A stretch of 22,262 nt of DNA, taken from a virus. The notes beneath the pieces were generated by a model. That model saw only the letters and a program-made list of their open reading frames with translations, did not search any database and was not told where the DNA came from. A program made the translations under genes and the position numbers. Position 1 is the stretch's first letter. Each line of letters begins with the position of its first letter. The DNA lies in the IMG/VR virus record IMGVR_UViG_3300047319_000447, positions 1 through 22,262 of that record. One strand, written 5' to 3'. Positions 1,783-22,237 of this stretch are shown here, one piece after another.

Positions 1783-3849
1783 TTAAGCGCGCAGCGCGCG
1801 CACGTTCTTGATGTAGACGTCGCCGACAAAAGCGGAGACGGTGAAATACCGCTTGAAGCTCACAGCCTGGGGCGGAACGGTCTGGATGCGGTGATCGATC
1901 GTCATTGCGCGGTTGCGGCCAGATGCGAAGTTCGGCAGCGCCGTGTCTGCATAGGCGTCAGCCATCTTGTATGTCGCTCCAAGGTCGGCCCCCACCTGGT
2001 TACCCTGGTAGTCGTAGAAGCGCATGAAAACGCGGATATTGAGGTCGCCAGTCGTGCCGTTCGCAAACACATCGCAACCGGGGCAATACACTTCACCCGA
2101 CTTGCACGGGATGTTGTCGTTTGCGTGAAAGGTGATCGTGGAATCCGCAGCCACGCCGTGCAGATGGAGCGACTGACCAAGCGTCGCTGAAACCTGAATG
2201 TCACGCACATCGACATCCACCAAGCCCGCGTCACGCGTCCAGTGCGTCAGTGCGTCGCCGCTTGTACCGACTGCATTCGCCGTGAAGTCGTAATCACGAC
2301 CGAGCGACCGAGCTCGAGCGAGCGGAATGTAATAGCCTTCCTGAATGGTTCCTTCGAGCGCATGGATAAGGACGTTATCGCCGATGACTGGGGTGTCAGA
2401 AAGATACGGACGCCAAAGGTAGCGCAGCGACGTTCCGAAGGCCGACATGCGCAGCCGGTTCGCGGCGTTGCCGTCTACGAGCATGCGCGGCGATGCGATC
2501 ACCGAAGCATTGACATAGTGCGTCGGTAAAATCTCGTGGCCCTGCATCGTCAATTCGACGCGATCACCGCTCGTTGTTGCGTCAAACCAGAGGCCGTCGA
2601 ACGCTTCGGAATGGCCACCTTTGAAGAGAAAGCGCGAGTATCGGCCGAGCGCATCGACCTTGAACGGGATCGCGTGATAGTCAAACGAGCAGCCATCGAA
2701 TTCGAAACTGTAACTATCGCAATTGTGATAGACCGCATTGCTCGCAGCGGCGAAAATGCAATCTTTGAACGTCATACGCTCGCCGCTGTTTGTCACGGCA
2801 ACATCGCTGCTGACGTACAAATTCTCCGATCCGTTCTGTTCGAACCGGCACCGATCCCACGTGATCAGGTACAGGTTGATTGGGTCGTAGCGCAATGCGC
2901 CGCGCCAACCCGTCACCACAACGTAGCGGCCGCCAGTATCGCGAATGTCGCTAGATGCGGCCGTGGTGTTACCCATGCGGATGCCCCAGCCGGTCGACGT
3001 CGCCTTGCCCGGGCCTAACACAACAATCGTTCCGCCGGCGCCATCGAGAAACGGCGAAATCGAAGCCCACTTGGCGTCGCCCATCGGAATAGTCGTCTGC
3101 TCATTGCGCATGACGATTCCATCTTTTGCAGCATCTATTGTGCTGAAGTCGAGCACCACGGTGCCGCGCGAATAGAACTTGTGCCACGGCTTCAGGTTCA
3201 GCGTGTCGGACAGCTTGTACGTCCCCCTCGGCAACTCAATTGCCGGAGCCGGGTACGGCAAAGCCTGCGCCGTCACGATCGCAGTAACGGCTGCGACGGC
3301 CGCATTAAAAGCCGCAAGCGAATCCGTCGCACCGGTTGCATCAGCGCCTTCGAAATCGGTCACCCTGAGCGACTCGCGCAGCACCGATTGCACCGTGCGA
3401 AGCGCCGCCCCGGTGCCCGCTTGAAGAAAGCCCACCAGCACTGACCCGCCGTCGTTGGCTAACACACGATCATCCACGGCGTGCGCCACCAGCGAGACAC
3501 CTTTGAACGGGTCGGCCAAATCGGTACGCAATGCATCGACGCCTGTAGCAACAGCCTCCTGAACATAGGCTTCGTCGATCGACGACACGACTTCGTCGTA
3601 GATCGTTACTTCCAGCGGGCCGATTACCTCTTTAAGCACCTGACGGTAGCTCCCGCTACCCCAGATTACAGCCTCGCCCCGTGCGTCGAGCACCACCGGA
3701 TTTGTATTCGGGATCGTGGCGGCTTCGTCCTGCCACGTATCCTTTTTTGTATCGGTGCCAGGCGCATAGAAATAGACCTTTCCGCCGACTAGCGGTCGGC
3801 CGAGCAGATTCGTGAACTGCGTTTTACCCTTTGGCAGAGGTGCGGCCAT
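1783..3849 (-). CDS. Tailspike protein with P22-type head-binding domain and beta-helix
   Basis: A 688-aa receptor-binding tailspike. Residues 1-87 match the P22 tailspike head-binding fold: TQFTNLLGRPLVGGKVYFYA, a GT.T.K.TW.DEA pattern, NTNPVVLDARGEA at 48-60 and a YR..L region. This domain attaches the spike to the tail hub. A linker helix (90-160) leads into a parallel beta-helix of the pectate-lyase type, entered at VTDFEGADATGATDSLAAFN (163-182) and running to about 450; it would bind and probably cleave surface polysaccharide. Residues about 515-688 form a separate C-terminal beta-rich module with Cys 582, 589 and 592. AAGGA nine bases before the ATG supports the start. The specific glycan and the active-site acids cannot be read from the sequence. 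Confidence 0.85.
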   Translation of the reverse strand: MAAPLPKGKTQFTNLLGRPLVGGKVYFYAPGTDTKKDTWQDEAATIPNTNPVVLDARGEAVIWGSGSYRQVLKEVIGPLEVTIYDEVVSSIDEAYVQEAVATGVDALRTDLADPFKGVSLVAHAVDDRVLANDGGSVLVGFLQAGTGAALRTVQSVLRESLRVTDFEGADATGATDSLAAFNAAVAAVTAIVTAQALPYPAPAIELPRGTYKLSDTLNLKPWHKFYSRGTVVLDFSTIDAAKDGIVMRNEQTTIPMGDAKWASISPFLDGAGGTIVVLGPGKATSTGWGIRMGNTTAASSDIRDTGGRYVVVTGWRGALRYDPINLYLITWDRCRFEQNGSENLYVSSDVAVTNSGERMTFKDCIFAAASNAVYHNCDSYSFEFDGCSFDYHAIPFKVDALGRYSRFLFKGGHSEAFDGLWFDATTSGDRVELTMQGHEILPTHYVNASVIASPRMLVDGNAANRLRMSAFGTSLRYLWRPYLSDTPVIGDNVLIHALEGTIQEGYYIPLARARSLGRDYDFTANAVGTSGDALTHWTRDAGLVDVDVRDIQVSATLGQSLHLHGVAADSTITFHANDNIPCKSGEVYCPGCDVFANGTTGDLNIRVFMRFYDYQGNQVGADLGATYKMADAYADTALPNFASGRNRAMTIDHRIQTVPPQAVSFKRYFTVSAFVGDVYIKNVRALRA

Positions 3850-3859
3850 AGTCTAAAAT
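3831..3859 (+). promoter_or_regulatory. Sigma-70-like promoter on the plus strand, antisense to the late operon
   Basis: TTGGCA at 3831-3836 and TAAAAT at 3854-3859 each match the sigma-70 consensus hexamers at five of six positions and are separated by exactly 17 bases. Transcription would begin near 3866, just before the ribosome-binding site and ATG of the plus-strand gene at 3887. The -35 lies inside the first codons of the tailspike and the -10 in the gap between tailspike and gp16 homologue. This is a pattern match only. Confidence 0.6.
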
Positions 3860-3886
3860 CCTTACGTCATTGAAGCGGAGATCCGC

Positions 3887-4129
3887 ATGAACCAGTTTTG
3901 GCTTGGCGTAATTTCGAGCGCGCTCTTCACGGGTTTCGTTCGGTTAGCGATGCATTGGTACAGTCGCAGCCCCAGCGATCCCCGGAAGGAACGGCAAAAG
4001 CTGATTGACCGGGTCAACCGAACTCCGCTCGACCGTCACTGGCGCTTGGCCAGCAAGCGCCTCTTGCGCGAGCCGTTTGTTACCGGTTTGATCAATCGCA
4101 TTTTTTGCAATCCCCGCACCAAGCCTTAG
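3887..4129 (+). CDS. Antisense small membrane protein, putative lysogenic-conversion (moron) gene
   Basis: An 80-codon ORF on the opposite strand to all neighbours. It encodes a hydrophobic N-terminal helix (about residues 4-22), then a strongly basic, Arg/Lys-rich cytoplasmic-type tail. GGAG at 3877-3880 lies six bases before the ATG, and a near-consensus sigma-70 promoter precedes it. The first 19 codons lie outside any other gene; the rest overlaps the 3' end of the gp16 homologue by 186 bases. By hand count over the overlap, third-position GC is about 70% in this frame but only about 54% in the gp16 frame, which favours real coding here. No homologue is recognised. The position between gp16 and tailspike equals that of immI/sieA in P22, so a lysogen-expressed exclusion or conversion role is inferred. 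A chance antisense ORF is the alternative. Confidence 0.5.
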   Translation: MNQFWLGVISSALFTGFVRLAMHWYSRSPSDPRKERQKLIDRVNRTPLDRHWRLASKRLLREPFVTGLINRIFCNPRTKP

Positions 4130-6565
4130 CCCCGGAACCTTCTCTGCAATAGAGAGCAACGCGTTGACGGCAGAATTCGAAATTGCCGCTGCGGTGTTCG
4201 AATGGTTCACTGCGGATCCAGCCGGCTCCGCTTGAATGTTCGCGGCCACACGACCGATCTGTCTCAATTGCGCGACTTGCCCCGGGTCAAACAGCGCATT
4301 CAATTTCTGTGTGCCAATCGAATTGAGGGCTTTGTTGTAGCCCGATTGCGAGAACGTGCCGACTTCGTCGCTCGCGCCGCCGAGCGCCTTTTGCTTCAGG
4401 TAATCGACCATCTGGCGCCGCAAGGCCATGCCTTGGTCGGGCACGATGTTCAGCATGGCGTTGATGTCGCCGACATTCCCGTTGAGCACGAATCGATTGA
4501 AGAATGTGTCTGGCACAGCGCGGCCATTGACAACTGCATTCAGCGCCGGCACCGAGTCAATCGTGTCGAAGCGCTCGCGAGCGACAGCGCGCGCCTGATT
4601 GAATGCCGCGATCGCGGCGGCGCCCTGATCGGCCTCGCCACCCATCAGTGGCTGTGTGTTATCGAGCGAATTGCGGACGATGCCAAGGGCGTTGACCACG
4701 TTCCCTTTGCCAGCGGCTTCGGCGTTCGCGATATCCTGGGCGAGAATCGTCTTAAACTGTTCGGCCGTACTTACGTTGAGCGGCGTGTCGCCGCTTTCGA
4801 AGCGGTCTAGCTGGCGCGAGACAGTCGTCGGCAGATGCAAGTCTCGCATCTGCGCTGTGAGCTGCTGGCGCGCGTCGTTGACAAATGCGACATGGTCGAG
4901 CGGAATGTCGCCACCGTCGATTGCGCGCGCTTGGCCATAAAGCCCGCTGATACCGGCTTGCACTTCCGCGTCGCGCTGCGCGAGCGCGTTCATAACGCCT
5001 TGGCCGGCTTGGTATTCGCCCGGCGCCTCGAGCGCGCCTTGGTTGTTCAGCGCCGAAATGAGGCCGCGATTTTGGTCCGCGTAACGCTGGGCGAGCTGCT
5101 CGCCGCCGATTTTGCCGCGCGTATTGCGCTCGAGCGTGAACTGCGTTGGATCGCGCGTCGCCTGCCCGAGCGTCAAACTACTCTCAGGACCGAGCACGGC
5201 GTCACCCTCTGCCCGACGAAGCACGGCGGCCGCGTCGATCGTGCCATCACGCGACAGCGCGTCCGTGACTCGCTGGCGCGTCGCTGCGAGGATCGATTGC
5301 GGAATCGCTGCGATATCGATGTTTTGTTCCTGCGCAGCCTGCCTGATCAGGTCGTCAGCATTGACGCGCGCCGCGGCTTGCGTGCTCGGTAAGGTTGAGC
5401 GCACCGCGCTCACCAGCCGATTGACACCTGTCGCCAGACGATCGGCAACGGCGCCGACCGCGCCACCAACGACCGAGCCGGCCGCGCCGCCTGCCGCGCC
5501 GCCGGCAATGCGGCCCGCGAAATCGCCGACGGTGTCATCAGAGTGCAGAGGTTGCGCGCCGGCCGTCGTCGCACCGGCAAGCGCGCCGCGACCCACCGTC
5601 GAGAGCGCACCGGTCGCCGGTGCCATGATTTCGCCGCCCACCAGATTCACCGGGTTTGCAACCGCGTCGGCGATATGCCCGACCGTTTGCTCGGTGCCGT
5701 TCCAGGCGTCGGGCGTAACGGCATCAACGCCGCGGCGAATGAGCGTGTCGACATCCTGCAAATGCGGGTCATGGCCGATCATGCTGCCGGCGGTGTTGAT
5801 TACCGCATTGACCGGGTTCGCAACAAGCCCAACTGCGTCCGCAACGCCGTGCCCGACGGCGCGCGCCGTGCGGCCGATCTGGTGCCCAAGTTGATCGATA
5901 AAGCCCGGTTGCTGTTGTGCTTGCGGATTGCCACGCGCCGCCAACGCTGCCAGCAAATCGGCATCGCTGATACCCGATAGCTCTTGCGGCGTCGCGGCGT
6001 TTGCGGTGCCGGAAATTGCGCTTGCGACGGCATTGCCGACGCGCGCGAGGACGCCCGGCTGCTGCGGCGCCGTTTGCGCCTGCTGTTGGGGCTGGTTGCG
6101 TTGCACGGTTTGCACGACCGCAGCAAGTTTTTGCGGGTACTGCGGATCTTCCGCATAGCCATGCAGGCCGCTCGCGAACTTGCTGACGTCGGACCCAGCG
6201 CCGACTACGCCGGGATACTTCCGCGCGAGCAGGCTGGCTTGATCCGCGGCAAAGGCGTCTGGCGATGAATACGCGCGGTAGTTGTCCGTCGATCCGGTCG
6301 CGTTGTCGGTCGCTGCCACGCCGCCGCCGGAGAAATCCTTGACGTTGCCGAGATTGTTCGTGCCCGGCACGACGGACTTGCCCCAGCCAGTCTCAAGCCC
6401 CCATTGAGCAAGCAAAAGATTCGGATCCACGCCGAGTTGCTGACCGGCGGCCGCCGCCGTGCCAGCGTGCTGCGCTACGAACGCCGCGGGCGTGTGAGCG
6501 GCGGCCGGTGCCGCGCCGACAGCGGACAGAAGCGCGTCGTCCGAGAGCGAGCTGATATCGGCCAT
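3944..6565 (-). CDS. P22 gp16-like ejection protein with N-terminal glucosaminidase/transglycosylase-like domain
   Basis: An 873-aa virion protein expected to be ejected with the DNA and to help it cross the envelope. Residues about 28-158 form a glucosaminidase (FlgJ/LytG-type) domain with LETGWGKS around Glu58, the likely catalytic residue, then NLGNVK and the Y..P..F..D pattern. This domain would open a local hole in peptidoglycan. The middle is low complexity and includes a Gly/Ala-rich stretch (about 350-376) that could enter membranes. A long helical region with NTRGKIGG and NQGA-type motifs follows, as in gp16-like proteins. The gene begins directly after the p20-like stop and ends 94 bases before the tailspike start. 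Its last 186 bases are overlapped by a plus-strand ORF. The domain call is firm; the gp16 equivalence rests on order, size and composition. Confidence 0.8.
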   Translation of the reverse strand: MADISSLSDDALLSAVGAAPAAAHTPAAFVAQHAGTAAAAGQQLGVDPNLLLAQWGLETGWGKSVVPGTNNLGNVKDFSGGGVAATDNATGSTDNYRAYSSPDAFAADQASLLARKYPGVVGAGSDVSKFASGLHGYAEDPQYPQKLAAVVQTVQRNQPQQQAQTAPQQPGVLARVGNAVASAISGTANAATPQELSGISDADLLAALAARGNPQAQQQPGFIDQLGHQIGRTARAVGHGVADAVGLVANPVNAVINTAGSMIGHDPHLQDVDTLIRRGVDAVTPDAWNGTEQTVGHIADAVANPVNLVGGEIMAPATGALSTVGRGALAGATTAGAQPLHSDDTVGDFAGRIAGGAAGGAAGSVVGGAVGAVADRLATGVNRLVSAVRSTLPSTQAAARVNADDLIRQAAQEQNIDIAAIPQSILAATRQRVTDALSRDGTIDAAAVLRRAEGDAVLGPESSLTLGQATRDPTQFTLERNTRGKIGGEQLAQRYADQNRGLISALNNQGALEAPGEYQAGQGVMNALAQRDAEVQAGISGLYGQARAIDGGDIPLDHVAFVNDARQQLTAQMRDLHLPTTVSRQLDRFESGDTPLNVSTAEQFKTILAQDIANAEAAGKGNVVNALGIVRNSLDNTQPLMGGEADQGAAAIAAFNQARAVARERFDTIDSVPALNAVVNGRAVPDTFFNRFVLNGNVGDINAMLNIVPDQGMALRRQMVDYLKQKALGGASDEVGTFSQSGYNKALNSIGTQKLNALFDPGQVAQLRQIGRVAANIQAEPAGSAVNHSNTAAAISNSAVNALLSIAEKVPGLRLGAGIAKNAIDQTGNKRLAQEALAGQAPVTVERSSVDPVNQLLPFLPGIAGAATVPMHR

Positions 6566-13076: not shown

Positions 13077-14171
13077 TTATGCGTCGGCGACTGCCGCCGT
13101 ATAGACCGTCACCAGGCCGTGCTGAACGAGGTTGTCGGTGTCGTCCGGACCGCGGCCGAAGAGCAGCTTTTCAATGCCGCGAATTTCCTGCACGCCGACG
13201 CCGGTGCGGAAACCGTAGTCGCGGACATTGGTCGTCGACTTCGTGCGCTGCGCCCATGCCACGCCAATTGCTTGCGCACCGCACAGGAAGTTCGCGCCGA
13301 CCTGAATACCGCCAGCACCCACACCGGCCAGGTACGGAATTTCCGGAATTTCGCGGATGATCACGCCATCCCATTGCAGCGAACCGCCGGTGAACAGCGG
13401 GTTGTTGCTCATGGCGCCGCTTTCGCGCGGGCGCGCGGTGCGATTCGCTTCAACCATCGCGGGGTCTTTGCTCAGATCCCGGAACGAAAGAGAGTTCGCA
13501 AACATCACGAACCATTCTTCGTCTTCGGACAGGCGAATCGGCTTGATTGCCGGCGACGCGAGCTGCGCGCGGCGCTTGGCCAAGCTGACCATGTCGCACG
13601 ACAGCTTGTCGGCGGTGTTGTCGAGGTTCGCGAGCGAGGCCGAATGGTCATTGCCGCTGTTATTGCTCAACGCGGCACCGAACAGCACGCGGTCCGAGTT
13701 GTCGGCGAGCCACGCATCCTTCTGCGCTTCGGTCGCAGTCGTGTACAGCACGCCATTGATCGAATAGAAGGCTGCGATCGTGCCGTCGCGCATTTTCTCC
13801 ATCGCCCACAGCTTGAGAGCCGTCTTGCCGGCGTCGCGCAACTCGATAACCGACTTCTGTTCGTCCCAATCGGTGACGACCACGGCATTACGCAGCGGGT
13901 TGACCTGGACGGACATCGAACGCGAGTCGAGTTCGTCTTCGTTGCCTTCGAGCACCTGATTGCCCGTGACGCCGTCGCCCTTGAGCTTGCGCACATTCGC
14001 GAACGTGACGCGGTCACCCGGCTTGCGGGTGAGGTCGTCCTTCAGTTGGATGATGGAATTCTCGTCGGTGCCCATGTAGCGCTTGAAGCGCGAGTCACGG
14101 ACGTATTCCATGAAGAACGAATCGTCCCATTGCTGGGGGGTTAGACCTTGACGTGCGACTGTATCAACCAT
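13077..14171 (-). CDS. Major capsid protein, N4-gp56 / DUF4043 type
   Basis: A 364-aa HK97-fold-type capsid subunit. The stretch SFFMEYVRDSRFKRYMG followed by KDDLTRKPGDRVTF, then LKGDGVTGNQVLEGNEDEL (about 63-81) and VNPLRNAVVVTDWDEQKS, is the N-terminal signature of the N4-gp56 / Phage_capsid_4 family. The gene directly follows the scaffold, and GAGGT about seven bases before the ATG gives a strong ribosome-binding site, as expected for the most abundant virion protein. The capsid family differs from P22 gp5 although the neighbouring portal and tail genes are P22-like, which points to a mosaic head module. Confidence 0.85.
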   Translation of the reverse strand: MVDTVARQGLTPQQWDDSFFMEYVRDSRFKRYMGTDENSIIQLKDDLTRKPGDRVTFANVRKLKGDGVTGNQVLEGNEDELDSRSMSVQVNPLRNAVVVTDWDEQKSVIELRDAGKTALKLWAMEKMRDGTIAAFYSINGVLYTTATEAQKDAWLADNSDRVLFGAALSNNSGNDHSASLANLDNTADKLSCDMVSLAKRRAQLASPAIKPIRLSEDEEWFVMFANSLSFRDLSKDPAMVEANRTARPRESGAMSNNPLFTGGSLQWDGVIIREIPEIPYLAGVGAGGIQVGANFLCGAQAIGVAWAQRTKSTTNVRDYGFRTGVGVQEIRGIEKLLFGRGPDDTDNLVQHGLVTVYTAAVADA

Positions 14172-15000: not shown

Positions 15001-17013
15001 CTACCCAACCTGTACGACTTGCGGCGGCTGCTGAGCGTCGGCGATGCTCTTGATTGCTGACGCCTGCAACTGGCCGGCTTGTGCGTTGAGCTTTCGAATT
15101 TCGGCGGCCGTCTTCAATTGATCGAGCGTCGACGGCCCCTGTACGGGTTGCGACGGCGCCGATGATTGCTGCGGCGGTTGCTGTGCATCGCTCATGGCCT
15201 TTACAGCCTGCGCGTGCGAGTGCTCGGCTTCGGCCTGCGTCTTGGCGATATCGGCCTGAGTCTTCTCCATGCCGAGTTGCTGCACCTGTTGTTGCGTGCC
15301 GGCATTGGCTTGCTGCGACTCTTCGAGCATCTCGATCAGCTTGTCTTTGTTCCGCAACTGCGACGCTTGGATCAGCACCGCCGGCGGGAACTGCACACCG
15401 GCTTGCGCAAGCTGCGTCAGCATCTGGAACTGTTCGGCCTGAATGTTCGCGACGTCCGGACCCTCTTCGATCGTGATATCAACGTCGAGCCCGGCAATGT
15501 CGTTATCCACGCGCACGATCTGCTGAAGCCGCGGGTCGTTCGGCTGAAGCGGCGGCTGCACCTGTTGCATGAATTGCTGGGCTTCCGCCGGATCAAGTTC
15601 GCCGAGCGCCTGCTGCAATGTGACGGGCTGATTCAAGCCAACCCATTTCGCGTTTCGTTCGTCGTCCGTGACGCGGATCCACTTCTGCTGGGTCCAGAAC
15701 TGACGGATGCACAGCCACGCGGCTTCATAGACCTGTTTCGTCCACTGGCGCAAATCGTCGATGATCGGCTCAACCTCGATAGCGCCGCCGGCCTGCTGCG
15801 ACTGAATTGCTCGGCCTGATTGGATGCGTGGATCTTTGCCGGCCATCGCTGCATTCGGGCCGCTCGCCTGCAATTCACTGGTCGCGTGCTGCATCAATTC
15901 GACCTGCGCCGATGCCATGTCGCCGGTCGGCAACACACCGAAGTCCTGATTCAGCACGCCAGCATTCTGGATTTCGATATGACCGTCAGGCTTCGCTAGC
16001 TCGCGACGCGCTTTGTCGACGTCGGCGATTGCCTGCTGATTGCCGAACGTCTGACGCACGCTCATGAGGTGCAGCGCCTTCGAGCGGCGCTTGTTCACCT
16101 CGTCTTGCAGCGACAGCATGTCGTTGACGTGGCCGTAGCGATTGTTCTCACGATCGACATACGCGGCGCGCAAATGCAGAGTGCTCGCGGGCTTGCCCTC
16201 GCGATCGAGGTAAGGCGACACCATCGGCTCTTCGAGGTACCCGCCTTTGGTAAACGTCGCGATCATCCACGTGCCTTTCCAGATGAAGTGACACTGCACA
16301 ATGCGCACGCGCGTGCGGCGGTTGTCACTCCATGTCGAGAACTTCGGCCGATCGTCGTACGTCTGGCTCAGCGATACCGAATTGAGCGTGGCTTCGATCA
16401 CGTCTTCTTTATCAGGCCAATCGTCGAGCGCCTGCTGGCGATCCATCCAGATCACGATGCCCTTGTAACGCGCGTCGCTGAAATCCTTCTGGCGGCTGTA
16501 CGCGTCGTACCAGATGCGATCCCAGGGAATGCGTGCGACGTTGACGTCGTACCCATCGGCGCTCGGCTTGGCCGTGATATCGACGCCGCCGTAACCCTCG
16601 ATCAACATGTCTTCGTAAACGTCCGAGCGGATCACGTCGAAGTCGTTGCGATCGGCGACATAGCGCAGCGAGTCGGTTGCGGCCTCGCTCAACTGCTCTT
16701 CGGCGGGATCACGCGGAAACGCCTTCGGATCACTACGCATACGGCGCTCGAAGCCCCGTAGGTATTCGACCTTGCGCTTTACGTAGTTGATCGTGAGTGC
16801 CGGCTGGCCGCGCTTGCGCAAAATCTCGAGTTCGCGCGCGGTCCATTGCTGGCCGTCGTAATAGTCGCGGGCGCGCTCAGAATTCAATCGAGCGTCGCGC
16901 GTCATCTGTTCGGACTCTTCGAACCAACGGCACAGAACCGTCGCATCCGGCGCATCAACTGCGGCCGGCTGGTCGTATCCCGTATCGGACGTGACGGTCA
17001 CGCTGTTTTCCAT
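15001..17013 (-). CDS. Portal protein, P22 type
   Basis: A 670-aa portal subunit forming the dodecameric DNA channel and the docking site for terminase and the gp4-like protein. Residues about 45-100 show the family pattern SERARDYYDGQQW, then RKRGQPALTINYV and a GFERRMRSDPKAFP segment. The middle carries AYVDRENNRYGHVNDMLSLQ followed by DEVNKRRS, a typical portal stretch. The C-terminal 120 residues are a Gln/Ala-rich helix (a probable barrel-like extension) ending in PPQVVQVG. The ATG overlaps the end of the terminase gene by 16 bases. Length is near that of P22 gp1 (725 aa). Confidence in function is high. Confidence 0.9.
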   Translation of the reverse strand: MENSVTVTSDTGYDQPAAVDAPDATVLCRWFEESEQMTRDARLNSERARDYYDGQQWTARELEILRKRGQPALTINYVKRKVEYLRGFERRMRSDPKAFPRDPAEEQLSEAATDSLRYVADRNDFDVIRSDVYEDMLIEGYGGVDITAKPSADGYDVNVARIPWDRIWYDAYSRQKDFSDARYKGIVIWMDRQQALDDWPDKEDVIEATLNSVSLSQTYDDRPKFSTWSDNRRTRVRIVQCHFIWKGTWMIATFTKGGYLEEPMVSPYLDREGKPASTLHLRAAYVDRENNRYGHVNDMLSLQDEVNKRRSKALHLMSVRQTFGNQQAIADVDKARRELAKPDGHIEIQNAGVLNQDFGVLPTGDMASAQVELMQHATSELQASGPNAAMAGKDPRIQSGRAIQSQQAGGAIEVEPIIDDLRQWTKQVYEAAWLCIRQFWTQQKWIRVTDDERNAKWVGLNQPVTLQQALGELDPAEAQQFMQQVQPPLQPNDPRLQQIVRVDNDIAGLDVDITIEEGPDVANIQAEQFQMLTQLAQAGVQFPPAVLIQASQLRNKDKLIEMLEESQQANAGTQQQVQQLGMEKTQADIAKTQAEAEHSHAQAVKAMSDAQQPPQQSSAPSQPVQGPSTLDQLKTAAEIRKLNAQAGQLQASAIKSIADAQQPPQVVQVG

Positions 17014-19270: not shown

Positions 19271-19552
19271 TTAGCAGCCCGCAGTATCCGACATATCGCT
19301 AGACGAAATCTTGGCTAAATTGCGCGGATGCGCACGAATCGTCGGCGCTTCGCTTGGATCACTTCCGGACTTGATAGCCCAAGCAATCAGCAATAGCGAG
19401 CCAACGGAATGCGACGGCTCGACGCCGTTGCGATAGCTCTGCAGTGAGCTGCGTGGAATTGAAGTGATGCGGGAGAGTTTGTACAAAGAGAAGCCGTCCC
19501 CGCAAAGGTCCGCGAGGACTCTGAACCAGTCAATGCAAACGGTGGACGGCAT
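19271..19552 (-). CDS. Small helix-turn-helix protein
   Basis: A 93-aa protein with an HTH-like segment FSLYKLSRITSIPRSSLQSY followed by RNGVEPS (about 21-47), followed by a hydrophobic helix SVGSLLLIAWAIKSG. The pattern recalls XRE-type domains in which the recognition helix is SIPRSSLQSYRNG. It lies between the gp49-like gene and the terminase genes, 56 bases ahead of TerS, and could be a late regulator or terminase-associated DNA-binding protein; neither can be shown. No clear ribosome-binding site is visible before its ATG, which suggests coupling to the upstream gene 15 bases away. Confidence 0.6.
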   Translation of the reverse strand: MPSTVCIDWFRVLADLCGDGFSLYKLSRITSIPRSSLQSYRNGVEPSHSVGSLLLIAWAIKSGSDPSEAPTIRAHPRNLAKISSSDMSDTAGC

Positions 19553-19567: not shown

Positions 19568-20113
19568 TTACTTGCTGCCGTGCAAACGCTGATGCGCGTT
19601 CGCGGTGTCGTCGAACACTTCAGGCGACAGCGGCGGCTGAGTCATCTGGAACAGTTGCTCTTTCAGCGCGTAGCCGGCTAGCGGCCAGATCTTTTCGCGC
19701 GCATTCTTCCGGGCAATGTCGCGGCCAATCTGCGCATCGAAGTTTTCGGGGCTAGCGCATGCGCTCTCGCCCGTCACCGTGAAGCCATTGCGCAGCACCA
19801 GGACGCAAAATGTCAGCAACGTGAGCGGCTGCGAAATGTCAGCGTTCGCATCAATGTCGATGCACGCGCCGCTATATGAACGCGTGGTCATGCTGAAAAG
19901 AACGGCGTTGCGTCGGTCGCGCGCGTCGTGGTCGAGAATGTCTTCGGTCAGGTAGCCGAAACGAGCTGCATCGGCCGCCGTAAAAAAGAATTCGCCGACG
20001 ATCGCCGCGTCGATATCGGCGGGCGTCACGCGCGGCGCGGTTTTGCCCGCCTTCACGATTGCGGCCTCGGTGCTCTGTTCGTCGGTCAGCGGCGTGTGGT
20101 TTGCCATGTTCAT
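19568..20113 (-). CDS. Phage protein of the N4 gp49 / Sf6 gene 66 family
   Basis: A 181-aa protein. RVTPADIDAAIVGEFFFTAA (28-47) and the block LTFCVLVLRNGFTVTGESAC with ASPENFDAQIGRDIA (about 100-134), then KIWPLAGYALKEQL, are diagnostic of the gp49/gp66 family. Its molecular function is unknown. AGGAG seven bases before the ATG at 20113 supports the MNMAN start over the ATG two codons later. The first 25 residues are an added disordered leader. It belongs to the accessory block upstream of the packaging genes. Confidence 0.82.
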   Translation of the reverse strand: MNMANHTPLTDEQSTEAAIVKAGKTAPRVTPADIDAAIVGEFFFTAADAARFGYLTEDILDHDARDRRNAVLFSMTTRSYSGACIDIDANADISQPLTLLTFCVLVLRNGFTVTGESACASPENFDAQIGRDIARKNAREKIWPLAGYALKEQLFQMTQPPLSPEVFDDTANAHQRLHGSK

Positions 20114-20226: not shown

Positions 20227-21012
20227 TTATTCAAATGCCGCGATGCGCTCGCCGAGCACCGCCGAGTACTGGGACATGACGAACGCCTGCTTATCGAGAC
20301 GATCGCGCTCGGTCTCGGCGAGGCCCGAAAAGATTGCTGTCCGGAAGAACGCCAGAAGTTTTTCGCGGCGGCCGTCGAGTTCAACTTTCTCGTCGATCAC
20401 GCGTTGCTGGTGAGGCGCATATGGCGATGTCACATGCTTCTCTGAATCAATGACGTGCCAGTCATCGGCGAGCAGATCGCTGACGCTTGGCACCCAGGTG
20501 CTCACCGCGTCGTCGACGCCCTTCAGAGCGAAATACGCGTTGTAAGGCACCTTCGAGCCTTCGCCGAAATACTCTTTGGCGGCGCCCGTCTGGGCCGGAT
20601 ATGAAGCGGGCGGCACCATGTACGCGAACATGCCCTTACCGTTCCAGCCGGCACGCGCAACGCGTCGACCGTCTTTGAGGGCCGCCAGCGCGCCTTGAAA
20701 GGTCGGCGTATATAGCGCCGGTACAACGGAAACGACGGGCATGTAACCATCCTCGAAGGCCTTGGCCGGCGAGAAAGATTGATAGCCACCCTTGTACACA
20801 ACGTAGTACCCGCCAATGCGCGGGCTGTGCTTCAGTACATAGTCGTGGTGAGACACTTCGATCGGTGCATAACCGGGCTCTTCAACGTCGAGCAACCAAC
20901 TACCACCATCGAATCTCGATTCACCGTCGTGCTGGCGGATCGCTTTGATCTTGAGTGCCCAAACCTGCTTGTGGCAGACATACAGTGGCATTTGCGTTGC
21001 AGCTTGATTCAT
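20227..21012 (-). CDS. Three-module protein with central Tad2/DUF2829 (anti-Thoeris) domain
   Basis: A 261-aa fusion of three units. Residues 10-93 (YVCHKQVWALKIKAI; HSPRIGGYYVVYKGGYQSFS; PAKAFEDGY) form a small domain known alone in many phages, function unknown. Residues 104-189 match DUF2829: FQGALAALKDGRRVARAGWN with GKGMF, then STWVPSVSDLLADDWHVI; this family includes Tad2, which sequesters the gcADPR signal made by Thoeris ThsB. Residues 200-260 (HQQRVIDEKVELDGRREKLL through QAFVMSQYSAVLGERI) match the crAss001_48-related helical domain. GGAG eight bases upstream supports the start. It lies upstream of the late packaging genes, beside NinX-like and gp49-like genes. Domain identification is strong; anti-defence activity of this member is inferred. 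Confidence 0.8.
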   Translation of the reverse strand: MNQAATQMPLYVCHKQVWALKIKAIRQHDGESRFDGGSWLLDVEEPGYAPIEVSHHDYVLKHSPRIGGYYVVYKGGYQSFSPAKAFEDGYMPVVSVVPALYTPTFQGALAALKDGRRVARAGWNGKGMFAYMVPPASYPAQTGAAKEYFGEGSKVPYNAYFALKGVDDAVSTWVPSVSDLLADDWHVIDSEKHVTSPYAPHQQRVIDEKVELDGRREKLLAFFRTAIFSGLAETERDRLDKQAFVMSQYSAVLGERIAAFE

Positions 21013-21129: not shown

Positions 21130-21609
21130 TCAGTGTCGCTGTTTCCAGCGCAAAAGACTTTGATAGGCCTGTCCGTCCGTCATGGCTGCGAGGCCGCGGC
21201 TCGCAAAATCGCGCGGCGCCATGGGCCGCAGACGGAATGGGGAATCGGTAAGTAGGCTCTCGGCGATCCATTCGGCGACGCATAGGCGGCAGATAGCCAC
21301 ATGCGGCGATTCGTCGCAAAAGAGGCCGTGATAGTTAGGGTTCTGCTGCGCCTCCGCCAGCCACACCCAAACCGACGGCGCGCCGCCGGCGCAGGCATCA
21401 AGGCGCGGAAATAGGGTGTAGTGGCGTTCGAACGCAATGGCCCCGGAGAGCAATACGTTTTCAGTCGGCTGATAGATCTGATAGCCGCCGCCGTGCACGT
21501 CGATGCGGCAATAGCTCTGCCCGTACAAACTCCGCAACTCGGGCTCCAGACCGCGCGCCTTGGCCACCCAGAAATCAAGCTCCGCGCCTTTGAGTTCGTC
21601 GATATTCAC
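21130..21609 (-). CDS. NinX-like protein (DUF2591)
   Basis: A 159-aa protein opening VNIDELKGAELDFWVAKARG, the signature of the P22 NinX / DUF2591 family, followed by an internal GGGYQIYQPT segment and a region rich in Cys/Trp/His (CDESPHVAICRLCVAEWIAE). The C-terminus contains RLRPMAPRDFASRG. The family is common in early or nin-type regions of lambdoid phages and has no established function. The start is GTG at 21609: GGAGG sits six bases before it and it overlaps the upstream TGA as GTGA. Longer readings from upstream ATGs give Arg/Cys-rich frame-shadow sequence. Confidence 0.8.
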   Translation of the reverse strand: MNIDELKGAELDFWVAKARGLEPELRSLYGQSYCRIDVHGGGYQIYQPTENVLLSGAIAFERHYTLFPRLDACAGGAPSVWVWLAEAQQNPNYHGLFCDESPHVAICRLCVAEWIAESLLTDSPFRLRPMAPRDFASRGLAAMTDGQAYQSLLRWKQRH

Positions 21610-21896
21610 GCTGCACCTCCGACGTTCCACTCGTTGTCGTTGCTCGCGAGAAAGGCCGCGAGGGATCTGCGGTTGTAGGCGACCACCACTTCGACCGGAT
21701 AGGTTCCGTCGGCATTGAAAAGACGCAGATTGGCAAATGCGCGGTACTTCTCCGGCAGATCGATATCGGCATAGAGATATGCAGCAGCTTTCTTCGGTGC
21801 AATCACTGGCCGGCGCACGCGGGCCACGACGCATTCGAACGTCTCGTATCCCTCGGTGCTCTGGAAAGGCAGCGGCATGCGCACAAGCAGTCTCAA
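21606..21896 (-). CDS. Small conserved-looking phage protein, unknown function
   Basis: A 96-aa mixed alpha/beta protein (core FECVVARVRRPVIAPKKAAA; YLYADIDLPEKYRAFANLRL; TYPVEVVVAYNRRSL) with no motif I recognise. Start choice is unsettled. A TTG at 21896 overlaps the upstream TGA as TTGA and has GGAGG four bases before it. A GTG at 21884 and an ATG at 21878 give shorter versions but lack a well-spaced ribosome-binding site. The longer ATG at 21947 lies inside the upstream gene. It is coupled by overlap to both neighbours. Confidence 0.55.
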   Translation of the reverse strand: MRLLVRMPLPFQSTEGYETFECVVARVRRPVIAPKKAAAYLYADIDLPEKYRAFANLRLFNADGTYPVEVVVAYNRRSLAAFLASNDNEWNVGGAA

Positions 21897-22237
21897 GCAG
21901 CCTCCGCAAGCGCAATGCCGAGCTTGGCGGCGCGCACTGGCACCCAAGCGGCGAGCCCTGTGTCGAACGTGAGAACCTTCGTCTCACGCACCGCCGGGCC
22001 GAAGTCAAGCCAGTAATGGCATGGTCCGCAGCCCGGCACGGTGAATTCGTGCTTCGCCTTCAGCGCGCCGCCCTTGCCGTGCTTCGACTGGTTCGAATGA
22101 CAATCGACGACAGATGGATGCGCCCAGCCGACGCTGCAACAGATGCCGGGCACGCGCAGATAGCACTCTTCGCCGCGGCACGCATCGATGTATGCAGAGC
22201 CCTCAGCCTTCGTCGGGCGTTTGCGGCGACTGCGCAT
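21893..22237 (-). CDS. YbcO/DUF1364-like putative nuclease
   Basis: A 114-aa protein with the YbcO (DUF1364) layout: CYLRVPGICC (25-34), then HPSVVDCHSN, KGGALKAKHEFTVPGC and CGPCHYWLDFG. The paired Cys/His residues suggest a zinc-binding HNH-like fold; family members occur in phage nin-type recombination regions. The basic N-terminus RSRRKRPTK could bind DNA. It is the first complete gene at the right edge; GGAG about nine bases upstream lies in the final 25 bases of the window, which contain nothing else I can call. Confidence 0.75.
   Translation of the reverse strand: MRSRRKRPTKAEGSAYIDACRGEECYLRVPGICCSVGWAHPSVVDCHSNQSKHGKGGALKAKHEFTVPGCGPCHYWLDFGPAVRETKVLTFDTGLAAWVPVRAAKLGIALAEAA

Follow-up and report, generated by a model that had tools for sequence, protein, structure and literature searches.

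The fusion gene and its surroundings

The window analysed in this study, meaning the whole stretch of 22,262 bases, is an IMG/VR virus record and makes up the whole of its contig. The large terminase encoded in it reaches at most 44% identity to its best matches in cultured phages; therefore, the window comes from a little-sampled lineage, and near DNA relatives among cultured phages were not found. The genes and features considered here are the following.

13077-14171, minus strand: major capsid protein (Phage_capsid_3)
15001-17013, minus strand: P22-like portal protein (PF16510)
19271-19552, minus strand: small protein matched by a family of phage transcriptional repressors (phrog_16553, E=1.5e-10), encoded between the genes for the Acb4-like protein and the small terminase
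19568-20113, minus strand: adjacent downstream gene, 181 amino acids, Acb4 / gp49-Sf6 gene 66 family (PF13876, profile match, identity to N4 gp48, own GGAG site)
20227-21012, minus strand: P0001, the NT-Tad2-CT protein, 261-amino-acid reading frame (open frame, GGAG, Pfam, PHROG, AlphaFold2)
20230-20421, minus strand: CT module, residues 198-261 of P0001, predicted crAss001_48 helical hairpin (PF21825, model helices, crAss001 match)
20446-20703, minus strand: Tad2-like domain, residues 104-189 (PF11195, ModTad2 match, Foldseek)
20458-20499, minus strand: putative pocket strand, loop and helix, residues 172-185, TWVPSVSDLLADDW (ModTad2 alignment; beta4 and alpha3 form the pocket wall, PMC12043709)
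20620-20652, minus strand: putative pocket loop beta1-beta2, residues 121-131, AGWNGKGMFAY (ModTad2 alignment, PMC12043709)
20722-20991, minus strand: NT module, residues 8-97, predicted OB fold, motif VWALKI...GGYYVVYxxGYxSxSPxxAFExGY (phrog_872 and phrog_11049, 12-sequence alignment, Foldseek, profile)
21130-21588, minus strand: unnamed phage protein directly upstream of the fusion gene (weak phrog_4389 match)
21893-22237, minus strand: HNH endonuclease family, at the window end, upstream of the fusion gene (phrog_131, E=1.5e-24)

The product of 21130-21588 resembles a NinX-type protein and may be one.

The frame of P0001 runs uninterrupted from 21012 to 20227 on the minus strand, with GGAG 8 bases upstream of its ATG, and the same span read in frame 1 of the plus strand holds two internal stops. 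An earlier note on this DNA had described one intact frame of this length here without giving a strand; the frame is confirmed on the minus strand, and the motifs quoted in that note lie in the translation at residues 18-22 (WALKI), 67-73 (GGYYVVY), 119-129 (ARAGWNGKGMF), and 171-188 (STWVPSVSDLLADDWHVI). The three-block reading proposed there was also correct, as the protein consists of NT (about residues 8-97), a Tad2-like block (104-189), and CT (about 198-261), matched respectively by PHROGs 872 and 11049, by PF11195, and by PF21825. This three-block observation is far beyond chance. No Pfam family matched residues 1-100, and NCBIfam and PADLOC returned nothing meaningful. The AlphaFold2 model, folded as a monomer from a 45-row alignment that excluded CT-only rows, had a mean pLDDT of 88.4. 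As the phrog_872 match spans residues 3-188, namely NT and Tad2 together (E=6e-38), the NT-Tad2 fusion is already known and common, and only the three-part order NT-Tad2-CT is unusual; this order is rare.

The middle domain and the adjacent Acb4 homologue

The earlier note had assigned the central DUF2829 block to Tad2, and our analysis supported this assignment. PF11195 matched residues 104-188 with E=2e-22 and 79.8 bits against a gathering score of 25, and the domain showed 56% identity over 84 residues to ModTad2 (phmmer E about 1e-27, 8v3e/9eib). In a Foldseek search, the Tad2 fold in the P0001 model matched 9eib, 8v3e, 8kbi, and 8sme, with E=6e-11 for 9eib. The ligand pocket of Tad2 is built from the loops beta1-beta2 and beta3-beta4, strand beta4, and helix alpha3 (PMC12043709). 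At the level of aligned residues, 10 of the 11 positions in the stretch 121-131 and 11 of the 14 in the stretch 172-185 are the same as in ModTad2. The structure prediction and pocket comparison that had been proposed as a check gave a monomer model fitting the ModTad2–hisADPR structure with nearly unchanged pocket loops. These data indicate that the middle domain, judged by sequence and model, genuinely belongs to the Tad2 family, stands nearest to ModTad2, and keeps the pocket loops.

Concerning the ligand, ModTad2 has been described as a binder of His-ADPR that inhibits type II Thoeris (cited in PMC13299392). The Tad2 domain comprises 86 residues in P0001, 84 in ModTad2, and about 102 in AcrIIA7. 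The long beta2-beta5 insertion of the cyclic-dinucleotide-binding HgmTad2/AcrIIA7 type, which goes with the binding of such ligands (PMC12043709), is absent from the P0001 domain; therefore, P0001 resembles ModTad2 rather than that type. The Tad2 part of P0001 thus probably traps ADPR-type TIR signals, a ligand assignment drawn from these resemblances. Members of DUF2829 have been annotated as anti-CRISPR, and the domain in P0001 might instead have lost its sponge role in favour of another function, such as the inhibition of Cas9 for which AcrIIA7 was initially reported. However, AcrIIA7 itself has been solved with 1',2'-cADPR and cGG, and the pocket loops of P0001 are more ModTad2-like than AcrIIA7-like, so we regard such a loss as very improbable.

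The second signal-trapping activity of the locus is most probably encoded by the adjoining gene, a point that was not visible to the earlier note. The protein encoded from 20113 to 19568 matched PF13876 with E=4.5e-30 and 104.4 bits against a gathering score of 27; a profile of this protein and its relatives matched the solved Acb4 structure 9e4w (E=2.9e-8), and the protein is 33% identical to gp48 of phage N4, which acts as Acb4, as shown by others (PMC12657230). By these matches, the product belongs to the Acb4 family. PF13876 is the family of Acb4, tetrameric sponges of which eight out of eight tested homologues bound 3'3'-cGAMP (PMC11722364). Of the pocket residues of SPO1 Acb4, F48, F62, and I66 are kept in the neighbour and K36, E49, Y57, and T70 are not; the unmatched K36 and E49 are the guanine-reading residues, and their loss speaks against a sponge role, although N4 gp48, active in tests by others, likewise carries T in place of E49. 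The neighbouring homologue probably traps cyclic dinucleotides.

A comparable pair is seen in phage N4, in which gp48 abuts gp49, an NT-Tad2 protein. This pair lies at 4003-4486 and 3633-4004 of locus L278, corresponding to 34003-34485 and 33632-34003 of N4. The gp49 protein is annotated merely as DUF2829, and the pair offers a tractable laboratory model.

The flanking modules

The NT block occurs in two subtypes. The "VWALKI" subtype is also found as a stand-alone protein of about 85 amino acids (L082) with 82% identity to the NT of P0001, and the shorter "IGTK" subtype shares with it the core GYxVxYxDGYxSxSPxxxFExxY (profile comparison 99.5%). When the NT model was searched alone with Foldseek, the only significant PDB match was the decoration protein Dec of phage L (6e3c; E=4.5e-4, TM 0.62, 28% identity), and weaker matches included OB folds of DNA ligases, RPA, and Teb1. 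The sequence profile of NT matched Dec across the whole domain (E=0.042), and its predicted element order, beta-beta-beta-alpha-beta-beta-alpha, is that of the Dec OB domain as described in PMC6449081. Profile and predicted fold place NT among OB-fold modules, with Dec of phage L as a relative. Identification of P0001 as a Dec protein was rejected, since the C-terminal trimeric beta-helix of Dec is absent and the Tad2 domain follows NT in its place. Homology between NT and a PGDYG-like module found in relatives was likewise rejected; their C-terminal motifs look alike, but profile comparison finds no match (probability 0.6%).

The likeness to Dec in both sequence and fold, down to the order of elements, raises the question of whether NT docks the sponge on the finished or assembling capsid as the OB domain of Dec does. 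The P22-like portal of the window phage would suit such a role, as phage L is P22-like, and in Burkholderia phage CSP3 an NT-CT gene lies between the portal and major capsid genes. Nevertheless, capsid docking appears highly unlikely: NT genes usually lie among accessory genes, NT is also carried by Acb4 and other partners without a capsid link, the trimeric beta-helix is missing, and a decoration on the outer capsid is not expected to enter the next cell. As a separate observation, gp96 of Pseudomonas phage Dolphis (L256, 2986-3480), which is labelled "capsid decoration protein", lies among accessory genes and consists of NT and a different C-terminal part without Tad2; its label probably derives from the OB-fold likeness to Dec.

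The CT block is matched by PF21825 (crAss001_48) at residues 200-258 with E=3e-15 and 56.5 bits against a gathering score of 24.8. In the AlphaFold2 model, it forms two long helices, 200-223 and 233-258, and it matched a predicted protein of phage crAss001 with TM 0.93. Neither profile nor fold searches gave a PDB match for CT, and an Acb2-like helical sponge was rejected as its identity, no Acb2 entry being matched by either route. CT is present in 56 cultured phage records, often as its own gene of about 65-75 amino acids. In the order to which Comamonas suwonensis belongs, four of 399 genomes contained PF21825 and three contained PF11195; both families are rare in these bacterial genomes, which is consistent with phage-borne accessory genes. 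Most relatives are without CT; therefore, CT is evidently not an obligatory partner of the Tad2 domain. In a locus from the order of Comamonas (L263, 616-1692), CT is fused behind an unassigned domain, which by association is a candidate new anti-signalling domain.

Exchange of modules and a proposed role for the locus

Module profiles were used to assign architectures over 254 loci, with counts given as distinct sequences. The most frequent forms were ACB (87), NT-TAD (74), and TAD (69), followed by ACB-CT and TAD-CT (five each) and by NT-CT, NT-ACB, and ACB-TAD (two each), the carriers of ACB-TAD being Psychrobacter phenylpyruvicus and a Campylobacterota MAG. NT-TAD-CT was represented by two distinct sequences, from the window and L001. 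NT-ACB-TAD and NT-TAD-ACB-CT were found once each and confirmed by Pfam, as a single protein of 293 amino acids (NT-Acb4-Tad2; L064, 4374-5252) and a single protein of 456 amino acids (NT-Tad2-Acb4-CT; L075, 4749-6116). A fifth, PGDYG-like module was found as PG-TAD, PG-TAD-CT, and NT-PG-CT. An unassigned stretch between NT and Tad2 in another locus (L133, 5557-6261) may be a diverged Acb4-like domain.

Among 54 non-redundant Tad2 loci (less than 90% identical), an Acb4-like domain was fused to Tad2 or lay less than 1 kb away in 17, all on the same strand, and at 1 kb or more in none (mean flanks above 4 kb); in the other 37, an Acb4-like gene was absent from the DNA examined. When the search was seeded with Acb4, 6 of 79 loci had Tad2 within 1 kb, and none had it elsewhere in the flanks; therefore, Acb4 mostly occurs without Tad2. 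These linkage counts come from searches favouring relatives of the window and describe those relatives rather than all phages. In Klebsiella phage PW7, Acb4, NT-Tad2, and CT are three genes in succession.

Two comparisons capture the exchange itself. Klebsiella phages LASTA and SopranoGao carry the same NT, which leads into a PGDYG-like module and CT in LASTA gp52 and into Tad2 in SopranoGao_55. Their DNA is 84% identical before the switch and 96% after the stop codon, with an unalignable replaced segment between, and the swap falls at the domain boundary (L270, 2057-2682, versus L276, 2738-3084). In the Tad2 tree, the window clusters with L004 and L005 (support 97); the Tad2 domain of L004 is 87% identical to that of the window, but the L004 protein has a PGDYG-like N terminus and no CT. 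L004 resembles the window in having an Acb4-like gene immediately downstream. Therefore, flanking modules have been replaced around a conserved sponge. The tree, with 84 columns and 45 of its 72 inner branches open, is too short for deep forks, and consequently its counts of 7 changes of the C-terminal and 23 of the N-terminal partner are only indicative.

The modules thus occur both apart and together, as the earlier note had stated, in stand-alone genes, repeated fusions, and close linkage. The further suggestion that the three work together was weakened in its strict form: each module also joins Acb4-like or other partners, which makes the three-part unit one combination among those of a larger set.

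Based on this evidence, we consider it probable that this is a modular anti-signalling locus, in which Tad2 would act against an ADPR-type signal and Acb4 against CBASS signals, with NT and CT as accessory parts. During infection, the Tad2 domain of P0001 would form a tetramer, as solved Tad2 proteins, which are homotetramers (PMC12043709), do; it would soak up the ADP-ribose-type signal made by the host TIR protein, either His-ADPR or a cyclic isomer of ADPR, and thereby keep the Thoeris effector from being triggered. At the same time, the Acb4 homologue would trap the cyclic dinucleotides of CBASS. NT and CT would then probably be add-ons tuning the assembly, avidity, or placement of the joined sponge. 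Since Tad2 forms tetramers and Acb4 does too, chains in which they are fused could come together in a single assembly.

A role of NT and CT as assembly or avidity modules is favoured over extra signal binding or docking to a phage or host component. The earlier note had suggested that the flanking domains may bind other signals or defence proteins or aid oligomerisation. Our data do not support signal binding by them; the only significant solved relative of NT is a capsid decoration protein, and CT is without a solved relative. A version of that idea, in which NT, CT, or both are independent sponges or inhibitors for other signals or effectors and P0001 is multi-specific on one chain, does fit several observations: both modules occur as stand-alone phage genes and associate with two different sponge families, two proteins (L064 and L075) join these families on one chain, and NT has the OB fold, often nucleotide- or oligonucleotide-binding, with a strongly conserved aromatic motif. 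We nonetheless judge it unlikely, because no solved relative of either module binds nucleotide, the only significant one of NT binds capsid, and CT matches neither Acb2 nor any other PDB entry. It also counts against this version that assembly is the more usual role of small helical hairpins.

A broader proposal, which we put forward tentatively as somewhat short of probable, is that these families constitute a common kit for multi-specific "combination sponges". Tad2 and Acb4 would recombine with OB-fold, PGDYG-like, and helical-hairpin modules to give either one polypeptide or closely paired genes, and a single locus would thereby neutralise several signal classes; NT and CT would be shared docking or further signal-binding modules making the parts interchangeable.

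Each of the families is known; the combination with Acb4 and the swapping were not found described in the part of the recent sponge literature that was covered, and the Acb4 preprint mentions just "additional extensions" on some homologues (PMC11722364). Tad2 and Acb4, described so far as separate sponge families, are neighbours in N4 and in many further phages and are fused on one chain in a few, with partner domains swapped precisely at domain boundaries. This suggests a rule for finding anti-defence genes, in which anything joined to NT, CT, or the PGDYG-like module is a candidate, and it opens two large families without an assigned function, crAss001_48 and the NT module, to testing. It further connects the Dec OB fold with a sponge for immune signals, and multi-signal sponges, if true, would bear on Panoptes, a defence that senses sponges (PMC12657230).

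Compared with known systems, the Tad2 domain of P0001 stands closest to ModTad2 of a Myroides odoratus prophage (9eib with hisADPR, 8v3e apo), with the same fold and near-identical pocket loops, but ModTad2 is a lone domain of 88 amino acids, whereas the domain in P0001 is flanked by NT and CT, and an Acb4 homologue is encoded by the adjoining gene. AcrIIA7/HgmTad2 and SPO1 Tad2 also have the Tad2 fold, but at about 31-36% identity, and P0001 lacks the insertion of the former. Dec shares the OB fold with NT through a weak, end-to-end sequence match, but it has the C-terminal beta-helix that the NT protein lacks. Regarding Acb4 (SPO1 Acb4 and N4 gp48), the neighbour is by sequence a family member, and this domain is joined in other loci to the NT, CT, and Tad2 modules seen here; in the window, the neighbour is a separate gene in which the guanine-reading residues of SPO1 Acb4 are not kept. 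Finally, PHROG 872 and N4 gp49 have the same order of NT then Tad2, and the N4 protein also adjoins an Acb4 gene, but both are without CT, and gp49 carries the short "IGTK" subtype of NT, whereas the window carries the longer "VWALKI" subtype.
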